DNA of 64,000 nucleotides from Oscillospiraceae bacterium (GTDB lineage Bacteria > Bacillota > Clostridia > Oscillospirales > Oscillospiraceae), in the NCBI GenBank assembly GCA_015068025.1, contig SVLH01000003.1, forward strand, positions 27,018 through 91,017, read 5' to 3'. Below, in pieces: positions 22,494 to 26,154 of this stretch. Each line of letters begins with the position of its first letter. The first letter of the stretch is position 1. A model generated the notes under the pieces. It made no database searches and was not told the DNA's origin. It worked only from the letters and a program-made list of their open reading frames with translations. Both the position numbers and the translations under genes were made by a program.

Positions 22494-25253
22494 TTAGAAC
22501 TGAGGGATCTTGGCGACGACGCTGGCGCAGCGGGGGCAGAGGTCGTCGGTACCGGCGGCGGTGCTGAACTTCCAGCAGCGGGGGCACTTGGCGCCCTCGG
22601 CGCTCTCCACGGCAACAGCCAGCTCGGTGCCCACGGTGACGGACACCTGGGAGACGATGAGCAGGTCGGCCAGCATGGCGGCATCCATCTCGGTCAGGAA
22701 GGCGTCGGCGGCGGGCACGGTCAGGGCGATCCTGGCTTCCAGAGCCTTACCGATCTTCTTCTCATTGCGGGCGGTTTCCAGCGCACCGTTGACGGCGTCG
22801 CGGACGGCGATGACGCGGTCCCACTTGGCCATCTCGGCATCGGAGAGGGCATAGTCGGCAAAGACGCCGTTCATGTCGTTGAACAGCACGTTGCGTGCAT
22901 CGTCACCCTCGCGGTGGGTCATGGCCTGCCAGATCTCATCGCCGGTGAAGCACAGGATGGGCGCCATGATCTTGGTCATGGTATCCAGAATAAGATACAG
23001 GGCGGTCTGGGCGCTGCGGCGCAGAGCGCCGTCGGTCTCCTCGCAGTAGAGGCGATCCTTGATGATGTCCAGATAGAAGTTGGACAGCTCGACGACGCAG
23101 AAATCGTTGACGGCGTGGGTGATGACGAGGAACTCGTAATCGTTGTAAGCCTCGGCGCACTTCTCGATCAGGGCGTTGAGGCGGGTGATGGCCCAGCGGT
23201 CCAGAGCCTCCATCTCTTCGGGAGCCACCAGATTGTTGGGGTCGAAGCCGTCCAGATTGCCCAGGCAGTAGCGGGCGGTGTTGCGGAACTTCAGGTAGTT
23301 CTGGCTGAGCTGCTTGAAGATGTTGTCGGAGCAGCGGACGTCGGCATGATAGTCGGCGGAAGCGGCCCACAGACGCAGCAGGTCGGCGCCGTACTTCTCC
23401 ATGATCTCGGCGGGATCCATGCCGTTGCCCAGAGACTTGTGCATGGCGCGGCCTTCGCCGTCCACGGTCCAGCCGTGGGTCAGGCACTCACGGAAGGGAG
23501 CCTGTGCCTTGCCGGTGGAGCCGACGGCGGTCAGCATGGCGGCCTGGAACCAGCCGCGGTACTGGTCGAGACCCTCGATATACATATCGGCGGGCCAGAA
23601 GCCCTGATCGCGCTTCATGGATGCGAAGTGGGAAGAACCGGAGTCAAACCAGCCGTCCAGGGTGTCGGTCTCCTTCTCGAAGCCTTCGGCCTTACCGCAA
23701 TGGGGGCAGGTGAAGCCGGCAGGCAGGATCTCGGCGGCTTCTTTGGCGAACCATGCGTTGGAGCCTTCGGCGGCGAACAGGTCGGAGATGGCGGCGATGG
23801 TCTCGTCGGTGACGATGGGCTTGCCGCAGTCCTTGCAGTAGACCACGGGGATGGGCAGACCCCACTTGCGCTGACGGGAGATGCACCAGTCGGTGCGCTC
23901 ACGGATCATGGCCTTCATGCGGTCAATGCCCCAGCCGGGCACCCAGCGCACATCGTCGCAGGCGGCGCAGGCGTCATCCTTAAAGGCGTCGACGGAGCAG
24001 AACCACTGGGGGGTGGCACGGAAGATGATGGGGTGCTTGCAGCGCCAGCAGTGAGGATAGCTGTGGACGATATCCTCGGCGGCAAACAGCGCGCCGGATT
24101 CCTTCATATCTGCCAGAATGACAGGGTTGGATTCCTCGGTCTTGAGGCCGGCGTACTTGCCGGCATAGTCGGTGTGGCGGCCCTGATCGTCCACGGGCAC
24201 CACCATCTCCATGCCGTAGCGGCGGCAGGTCTGATAGTCGTCCGCACCGAAGCCGGGAGCGGTATGGACGCAGCCAGTACCGGAGTCCATGGTGACGTAG
24301 TCGGCGTTCACCAGACGGCTCGTCTTGGGCAGGAAGGGATGGTCGGCCAGCATGTTCTCGAAGAACTGACCGGGGTGGGTCTCCACGATCTCGTAGTTCT
24401 CCACGCCGCCAACGCCCATGACCTTCTCCACCAGAGCCTCGGCCACGATGTAGATCTCGCCGTTGTCGGTGTTCTTCACCAGAGCGTAGGAATCCACAGG
24501 GTGCAGGGCGATGGCCAGGTTGCCGGGCAGCGTCCAGATGGTGGTGGTCCAGATGACGAAGAACAGCTTGCTCTTGTCATAGGCGCCCAGCTTGCCGCAG
24601 TCGTCGTTCATGGGGAACTTGACGTAAACGGTGGTGCAGGGATCGTCTTTATACTCGATCTCGGCTTCTGCCAGAGCGGTCTCGTCGTGGGCGCACCAGT
24701 ACACGGGCTTGAGGCCCTTGTAGATGTAGCCCTTCTTGTACATCTCACCGAAGACCTTGACTTCCTCCGCCTCGAAGGAGGGGTTCATGGTCAGGTAGGG
24801 ATGCTCCCAGTCGCCGATGACGCCCATGCGCTGGAAACCCTTCATCTGAATATCCACATACTTCTGGGCGTAGGCATGGCAGGCGGAGCGGAATTCGGGC
24901 ACGCTCATGGCCTTGTGGTTGAGCTTCTGCTCCTTGATGATGGCAGACTCGATGGGCATACCGTGGTTATCCCAGCCGGGGATGTAGGGGGTATAGTGGC
25001 CGCGCATGGCGTAGGAACGAACAATGATGTCCTTGAGGCTCTTGTTCATGGCGTGACCCATGTGGGGGTTGCCGTTGGAAAACGGAGGGCCGTCGTGCAG
25101 AGAGAAGCGGGGCTTGCCCTCGTTCTTCTTGAGCAGCTCGTTGTAGATGTCCATTTCCTGCCAGCGAGCCAGCATCTCCGGCTCACGCTTGGGCAGGCCT
25201 GCTCGCATGGGGAATTCGGTCTGCGGCAGATTGATGGTCTGATTATAGTCCAT
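22494..25253 (-). CDS. ileS: Isoleucyl-tRNA synthetase
   Basis: 919 residues. The HIGH motif appears as HMGH (PHMGHAMNKSLKD), the KMSKS loop as the divergent MHKSLGN, and the C-terminal zinc-binding CPRCWKF and CPRC pairs are present. The CP1 editing domain has TTTIWTLPGNLAIA. It charges tRNA-Ile and edits Val. It is the second gene behind an Ile-specific T-box; a DUF2726 gene lies between. AGGAG precedes the ATG at 25253. In related genomes lspA and rluD follow directly; here an ECF gene and an acyltransferase intervene. Confidence 0.98.
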   Translation of the reverse strand: MDYNQTINLPQTEFPMRAGLPKREPEMLARWQEMDIYNELLKKNEGKPRFSLHDGPPFSNGNPHMGHAMNKSLKDIIVRSYAMRGHYTPYIPGWDNHGMPIESAIIKEQKLNHKAMSVPEFRSACHAYAQKYVDIQMKGFQRMGVIGDWEHPYLTMNPSFEAEEVKVFGEMYKKGYIYKGLKPVYWCAHDETALAEAEIEYKDDPCTTVYVKFPMNDDCGKLGAYDKSKLFFVIWTTTIWTLPGNLAIALHPVDSYALVKNTDNGEIYIVAEALVEKVMGVGGVENYEIVETHPGQFFENMLADHPFLPKTSRLVNADYVTMDSGTGCVHTAPGFGADDYQTCRRYGMEMVVPVDDQGRHTDYAGKYAGLKTEESNPVILADMKESGALFAAEDIVHSYPHCWRCKHPIIFRATPQWFCSVDAFKDDACAACDDVRWVPGWGIDRMKAMIRERTDWCISRQRKWGLPIPVVYCKDCGKPIVTDETIAAISDLFAAEGSNAWFAKEAAEILPAGFTCPHCGKAEGFEKETDTLDGWFDSGSSHFASMKRDQGFWPADMYIEGLDQYRGWFQAAMLTAVGSTGKAQAPFRECLTHGWTVDGEGRAMHKSLGNGMDPAEIMEKYGADLLRLWAASADYHADVRCSDNIFKQLSQNYLKFRNTARYCLGNLDGFDPNNLVAPEEMEALDRWAITRLNALIEKCAEAYNDYEFLVITHAVNDFCVVELSNFYLDIIKDRLYCEETDGALRRSAQTALYLILDTMTKIMAPILCFTGDEIWQAMTHREGDDARNVLFNDMNGVFADYALSDAEMAKWDRVIAVRDAVNGALETARNEKKIGKALEARIALTVPAADAFLTEMDAAMLADLLIVSQVSVTVGTELAVAVESAEGAKCPRCWKFSTAAGTDDLCPRCASVVAKIPQF

Positions 25254-25276: not shown

Positions 25277-25813
25277 TTAACTTTCAATAAATTTTAAAAT
25301 CTCTTCTTCTGAAACTTCTTTTGTCCGAAACACTTTATATCCGCACAAAGTCAACACTTTGTCGACAAACTCATCTCGCTCAGCCCGTTCTTTGTTCTGG
25401 TGACTGTTATCATCCAGCTCGATCACATACCGCGCAACCAAGTTGCTTTTCGCCAGAACAAAATCCACATGCTTTGCCTGAATTCTGTAAAGATTGCTCT
25501 TATATTTCGGATGGTTTCGAATAGGCTCTACCAAATCAAACAAGCGCACTTTCGCAAACACAATCAAATCATGTTTTTTTGCAATTTCATTCAACTTGTA
25601 ATACGCGCGTTTCTCATTCTGCGAGAACATCCATTTGGATTGATATGCGCCTTCAACCAAAACATCTTCTTTAAGCGCATCGTCAGGCGCGCACTCATTG
25701 TCCACAGCCTGTTTATTTGCCGTTTTCGGCTTTTGGCCACCTGCTCCCCCGCCTGTTCTCAATTTTACAAGTGCAAAAAAAACAAACGCCAAAATCAATA
25801 CCCAAACAAACAT
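25277..25813 (-). CDS. DUF2726 domain protein with N-terminal membrane anchor
   Basis: 178 residues from the ATG at 25813 (GAAAGGAG upstream). A membrane helix at 2-16 is followed by a low-complexity linker and a DUF2726-like domain from about residue 65 (LNEIAKKHDLIVFAKVRLFDLV, HVDFVLAKSNLVARYVIELDDNSHQN, CGYKVFRTKE). DUF2726 is a restriction-endonuclease-like fold; the D-(V/I)-E-(L/D)D pattern fits a PD-(D/E)XK core, but activity is unproven. Base composition is visibly richer in A+T than its neighbours, which suggests acquisition. It sits between the Ile T-box and ileS. Confidence 0.8.
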   Translation of the reverse strand: MFVWVLILAFVFFALVKLRTGGGAGGQKPKTANKQAVDNECAPDDALKEDVLVEGAYQSKWMFSQNEKRAYYKLNEIAKKHDLIVFAKVRLFDLVEPIRNHPKYKSNLYRIQAKHVDFVLAKSNLVARYVIELDDNSHQNKERAERDEFVDKVLTLCGYKVFRTKEVSEEEILKFIES

Positions 25814-25834
25814 TGTAGCGCTCCTTTCGCAAAA

Positions 25835-26120
25835 CAAAAAACGCTTCATCTCTTTTTCAAGAGACAAAGCGTTGTGAAAACACTCTGCGGTACCACTCTC
25901 GGTTGCCGTCCCCTTGCGGAAACGACCGCTTATCGCCTGCGATCACAGGCCGATGCTGTAACGGGCATCAACCGTCCAAACCTACTCGCGTCGTCTTTCA
26001 GCCGGAGGCTCCAAGGTGATTTTCACGCTCCGTTTCTCTCCGTCTTACACCGACCGACGGCTCTCTTCGCAGAAACCAAAGGGTTACTCGTCCTTATCTA
26101 CACCAAACATATTCAATTAC
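25835..26120 (-). promoter_or_regulatory. T-box leader, isoleucine type, upstream of DUF2726-ileS
   Basis: Minus-strand leader with Stem I elements GATAAGGACGAGTA and AGAGAGCCG, a specifier region GTGAAAATCACC with codon ATC (26018-26020), the T-box AGAGTGGTACCGCAG (25885-25899), and a terminator (25840-25873, T run on the minus strand). Uncharged tRNA-Ile would stabilise the antiterminator and permit transcription of DUF2726 and ileS. Confidence 0.92.
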
Positions 26121-26126
26121 CGCACT

Positions 26127-26154
26127 ATCATATCATGTTTTTGCCGTTTGTCAA
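26127..26154 (-). promoter_or_regulatory. Promoter of the Ile T-box operon
   Basis: Minus-strand TTGACA (26149-26154), 16 bp, TATGAT (26127-26132), about 10 bases ahead of Stem I. Confidence 0.75.

Follow-up and report, generated by a model that had tools for sequence, protein, structure and literature searches.

A DUF2726 gene of ssDNA-element type, probably captured in a variable interval between an isoleucine T-box and ileS in an Oscillospiraceae genome

The window, i.e., the whole stretch of 64,000 nucleotides that was analysed, comes from a metagenome-assembled Oscillospiraceae genome (1.54 Mb, 71% complete, 39 contigs), the one assembly that represents its species. Read along the minus strand, the locus of interest presents a promoter-like site, a T-box leader, a terminator, the Shine–Dalgarno (SD) sequence and ATG of a DUF2726 gene, and then ileS. 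The DUF2726 gene (25277..25813, minus strand) encodes a TM-DUF2726 protein of 178 aa that matches PF10881 over residues 62-173 (E 8e-20, 71.3 bits against a Pfam cut-off of 24.7). Its SD sequence, AAAGGAG, lies at 25827-25821, and its translation most likely begins with the ATG at 25813 and not with the TTG further upstream at which the listed open reading frame starts. Only 23 nt separate its end from the start of ileS (22494..25253, minus strand), which encodes an isoleucyl-tRNA synthetase (IleRS) of 919 aa and has its own SD sequence (AGGAGTG) just 3' of the inserted gene. The initial annotation had described a T-box with an ATC specifier that does not directly precede ileS, the DUF2726 gene coming first, and the locus is indeed built in this way; the span that it had given (25277-26120) covers both the T-box and the gene, but is not that of the gene alone. 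Downstream of the DUF2726 gene lie ileS and the gene of an ECF transporter S component, and upstream of it lies an amidase gene. Within this housekeeping operon, it is unaccompanied by any gene for Zot, Rep, an integrase, or a coat protein.

The T-box leader (25857..26109, minus strand) matches the RF00230 model over its full length (positions 1-219 of 219) with 96.2 bits, which clears the gathering score of 93 bits. Its specifier codon, AUC (26018..26020, minus strand), identified by direct reading of the sequence and by the Rfam alignment, lies directly 5' of a conserved ACC and matches the amino acid of the downstream ileS. The T-box sequence GUGGUACCGC, whose UGGU would pair with the ACCA at the 3' end of the tRNA, and the antiterminator stem (25857..25901, minus strand; −15.7 kcal/mol) overlap an intrinsic terminator with a 15-bp stem and a U run (25840..25873, minus strand; −20.2 kcal/mol, z −6.4). 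In the RNA folding, the strand AACGCUUUGUCUCU is common to the antiterminator and the terminator, which makes them mutually exclusive; because both use this one strand, the switch looks intact. At five ileS loci of relatives, extra sequence has been inserted between stem I and the antiterminator region of the T-box, and the profile matches these leaders in two pieces or over a longer stretch.

The sole good promoter-like site of the locus is a putative sigma-70 promoter (26127..26154, minus strand; TTGACA-16-TATGAT with an extended -10), identified by consensus match only (11/12 matches) and placed upstream of the T-box, the DUF2726 gene, and ileS. We saw no terminator-like site between the DUF2726 gene and ileS, and no separate promoter of the DUF2726 gene was visible; one nearby promoter-like match has its -10 hexamer within the ileS start codon. 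This agrees with the dependence of the gene on the T-box promoter that had been proposed initially. The DUF2726 gene would thus be read as the first gene of a T-box-ileS transcript starting 5' of the T-box. With charged tRNA-Ile, transcription would halt at the terminator (25873-25840); as uncharged tRNA-Ile accumulates, the AUC specifier and the UGGU-ACCA pairing would favour the antiterminator, so that DUF2726 and ileS would both be transcribed. Induction of DUF2726 by uncharged tRNA-Ile is what this anatomy predicts.

The composition of the gene is deviant. Its GC content (0.41, with a GC3 of 43%) is the lowest of the 50 predicted genes of the window (mean 0.60, sd 0.044), in line with the lower GC noted initially. 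The genome has named relatives, among them Oscillibacter sp. 1-3, Candidatus Oscillibacter pullicola, and the metagenome-assembled genome SIG468 (IleRS 95% identical to that of the window over 478 residues). We compared ileS loci in a set of 86 genomes of the genus, as the initial annotation had proposed for close relatives. The DUF2726 gene is absent from every other readable ileS locus of the set, which rules out that the ileS operon contained it ancestrally. Together with the deviant composition, this absence upholds the initial description of a foreign, AT-rich gene captured between the T-box and ileS. Elsewhere in the 86 genomes there are two DUF2726 relatives (G211, 53%; G271, 49%, its frame interrupted by a stop), both away from ileS. 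Sister species whose IleRS is about 95% identical to that of the window differ in what they have in the interval: nothing in G214, a DUF6487 gene in G224, and a non-coding repeat in G221. The sequence upstream of ileS reads ...AAAAGGAGTGCAAATT-ATG in G214 and ...TTAGGAGTGTAAATT-ATG in the window; the SD is nearly the same in both, and this places the insertion after the terminator and before the old ileS SD. At the insertion itself, we saw neither flanking repeats nor an integrase or a remnant of a phage, which counts against a capture. Direct repeats were considered as an insertion scar and rejected, the flanks giving only short pairs of low identity.

The T-box-to-ileS interval in this Oscillospiraceae genus is a recurrently re-used passenger slot. 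Among the 70 ileS loci placed on a tree, the T-box leads directly to ileS in 27, 7 have non-coding inserts (some of them repeat-like), and 36 have one to four genes. Classed by Pfam, with additional members assigned by eye from translations, the passengers comprise, by locus, DUF6487 zinc ribbons (25, one a frameshifted remnant), NTF2-like proteins (9), an unnamed protein of 255 aa (4), acyltransferase-3 (3), GNAT (2), DUF1963 (2), and the DUF2726 of the window (1). By parsimony, passengers were gained or lost at least 19 times over the ileS loci, 15 times for DUF6487 alone, counts that are approximate because the quick tree used has several unsupported forks and a few partial genes. No recognisable passenger in the genus is opposed to the direction of ileS. 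At four loci of neighbouring genera, too, ileS has DUF6487-like passengers. The NTF2-like passengers have a weak resemblance to Imm-NTF2 (E 0.002-0.005). The slots of loci L135-L140 hold up to four co-directional passengers, including DUF1963, the unnamed 255-aa family (MTMDECREYLPESWL...), and NTF2-like genes. The frameshifted DUF6487 gene, in G203, shows a passenger in the course of decay. At five ileS loci from several species, the slot holds a short, repeat-like, non-coding element that contains TTTTTGCCACGTACATGCCGCGGCAAAAA or similar.

The T-box intervals of two other synthetase genes served as controls. About 10-11 of the 28 pheS loci that could be read have genes there, against 1 of 28 for tyrS. 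The passenger frequencies of ileS and tyrS differ (Fisher p 5e-6, in a test that ignores kinship). Since the tyrS interval is nearly never filled, a T-box alone is insufficient for passengers, and since the pheS interval is also variable, the ileS slot is not unique. In the genome of the window itself, the pheS T-box is followed by the gene of a polysaccharide-deacetylase lipoprotein with a long Pro-Glu repeat and then by pheS; related species have a similar lipoprotein gene, other genes, or nothing in this slot.

The window protein consists of a hydrophobic helix (residues 2-20) taken as a putative membrane anchor, a disordered linker (22-57), and a restriction-endonuclease-like domain (62-173). 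All 11 aligned homologues, like the AlphaFold2 model of the window protein, begin with a hydrophobic helix, continue with a linker that varies, and end in a compact domain. The modelled domain (pLDDT 89.8) has the element order H-E-H-E-E-H-H-E-H, as expected for an alpha-beta-beta-beta-alpha-beta core. Fifteen residues are invariant across the 11 homologues: E67, K88, R90, D93, K114, H115, D117, E132, D134, D135, H138, R146, D147, F149, and G158. With respect to the catalytic D-(X)n-(D/E)-X-K motif, D117 and E132 are invariant and the K position is occupied by the invariant D134. Vsr/DUF559-like variants are known with Asp at the K position. The replacement of the canonical Lys by Asp makes catalysis by DUF2726 plausible only. 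Structure comparison with viral models gave matches named restriction enzyme, endonuclease, VSR, and DUF2726 (best E 8.5e-5); against the PDB, DrdV, TnsA, and VRR_NUC led, none of them at E < 0.001. A sequence search of solved structures with the window protein gave no match, and no curated NCBIfam model matched it. Its weak overlaps with other Pfam families are to PF04480 (E 3e-5) and PF18741 (E 3e-4). Hence, the restriction-endonuclease-like core named in the initial annotation is backed by the predicted topology and the invariant acidic residues, but the matches to folds in the PDB are weak. A 2013 survey of the HEPN superfamily described DUF2726 as a DNase with the restriction-endonuclease fold and noted its fusion to AbiJ-NTD3 (PMC3710099). 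We regard the protein as probably a membrane-tethered nuclease with a PD-(D/E)XK/Vsr-like fold.

Most close homologues of the gene belong to mobile elements of the filamentous-phage or CRESS type. We read the neighbourhoods of eight loci of close TM-DUF2726 homologues. Those in G211, G155, G271, and G542 adjoin Rep_trans and/or Zot genes of inovirus-like proviruses, with an integrase in G155, and G031 has two copies, each adjoining a Viral_Rep/helicase Rep with an integrase; G044 and G313 (2 of the 8 loci) show no clear mobile element, which counts against such an origin. The inovirus-like provirus of G542 is flanked by a TM-DUF2726 gene on both sides. Catalogued phages with a DUF2726 relative include Vibrio phage Vaf1 (Inoviridae) and PE002 (Tubulavirales), and in the record of the latter the depositors note that DUF2726 adjoins an export protein gene. 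Distant relatives are common on plasmids, mostly conjugative ones. The homologous genes are mostly AT-rich relative to their own loci. Scans of genome and viral contigs with peptide patterns found no close DUF2726 relative. DUF2726 and the T-box as a recurrent pair were also considered and rejected: there is no T-box near 14 PF10881 matches, nor near the DUF2726 relatives of G211 (16 kb searched) or G271.

We consider it likely that a DUF2726 gene of an ssDNA element was recently captured in the permissive T-box-ileS slot, where it would now be co-transcribed with ileS. A gene of the filamentous-phage or small-ssDNA-element type would have landed between the T-box terminator and the ileS ribosome-binding site, and the original job of the nuclease may have been in element-versus-element or superinfection conflict. 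Induction of DUF2726 by starvation would then arise because of the insertion site and is not evidence of a starvation response; the link was probably inherited from the site and did not evolve for it. The initial annotation had offered an accident of insertion or a starvation-linked defence. The accident fits better, but needs recasting as the recurrent use of a permissive slot. The defence gained no specific support, as the slot holds many unrelated genes in relatives and the DUF2726 relatives found elsewhere have no T-box. Because many unrelated genes use the slot, landing there says little about function. We found nothing that ties DUF2726 to isoleucine in particular and, given the diversity of its fellow passengers, a starvation defence evolved for the purpose, though possible, is not the reading that we favour. 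The adaptive version of this idea, in which control by tRNA-Ile lets isoleucine starvation, or the depletion of charged tRNA-Ile by a phage or toxin, trigger defence or growth arrest, seems unlikely to us. T-box control is anatomically plausible, the predicted active-site residues are intact, the survey that describes the DNase and its AbiJ-NTD3 fusion is focused on defence (PMC3710099), and some other passengers resemble immunity-type families (DUF1963 and, weakly, Imm-NTF2). However, no other examined DUF2726 relative is under a T-box, the passengers have diverse functions (zinc ribbon, acyltransferase, GNAT), the combination of DUF2726 and ileS occurs in one species only, and PADLOC defence models gave the window protein no significant match (best HEC-02B, E 0.0056, over 42 residues). 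We are equally doubtful that the ileS and pheS T-box intervals in Oscillospiraceae are true acquisition and expression slots, which would keep mobile-element passengers of defence or immunity-like kind and switch them on as charged tRNA falls, e.g., under attack on the tRNA or the synthetase, with DUF2726 as one such effector.

A neutral passenger outside T-box control, transcribed from a cryptic internal promoter or scarcely expressed and heading for loss as a transient insertion, is also improbable. Spurious promoters are frequent in AT-rich DNA, passenger turnover in the slot is high, and G203 shows a decayed DUF6487 pseudogene. Against this, the reading frame of DUF2726, its SD, and all of its invariant residues are intact, the search for an internal promoter gave no convincing site, and the recognised passengers of the genus are all co-directional with ileS. 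An artefact of assembly or binning, by which a DUF2726 fragment was joined to the ileS contig, would be compatible with the incomplete, fragmented metagenome-assembled genome and with our having seen no independent assembly of the species, but is very improbable: the gene is internal to a contig of 91 kb and occupies precisely the gap from the terminator to the ileS SD, which in relatives holds passengers as well.

Under the preferred reading of a recent capture in a permissive slot, riboswitch-controlled housekeeping operons can host a fast-turnover slot in which inserted unrelated genes, including phage-type nucleases, would inherit control by tRNA charging. Insertion into such a slot would be a simple, testable route for accessory genes to gain starvation control. 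It also calls for caution, as a preceding T-box alone is a poor ground for assigning an amino-acid function to a gene. That accessory genes and genes of unknown function lie under T-boxes is already known. Wels et al. 2008 found unknown or unrelated genes after 8% of T-boxes and labelled several of the hypothetical genes under T-boxes 'tRNA-ligase related' (PMC2494555). In the openly licensed PMC papers searched, we found no account of a slot with rapid passenger turnover throughout a genus that holds a phage-type nuclease in one of its species.

Three known systems can be compared with the locus. The window protein shares with the DUF559/Vsr/MTES_1575 families a weak Pfam overlap, the D...E-x-D...H motif, the predicted core topology, and the viral fold matches, but differs from them by its membrane anchor and by Asp instead of Lys at the third catalytic position. 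It has the same domain as the DUF2726 proteins of filamentous phages (Vibrio phage Vaf1, Vibrio PE002 elements; PHROG 14167) and the same TM-linker-DUF2726 layout as those of inovirus-like and CRESS-like elements of Oscillospiraceae, its closest relatives (G211, G044, G155, G031) having 39-47% full-length identity to it. The genes of its relatives are mostly AT-rich, as is that of the window, which nevertheless has no Zot, Rep, or integrase neighbour, whereas the homologues in G211, G155, G271, G542, G031, and the Vibrio phages have an element context. With other T-box (RF00230) operons of aminoacyl-tRNA synthetases, the locus shares the anatomy of the leader, the Ile specifier, the terminator/antiterminator switch, and the ileS target. 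It differs from them in that its first gene is a predicted nuclease of the mobile-element type and in that the position after the T-box is, in this genus, a fast-changing slot and not the place of a stable accessory gene.
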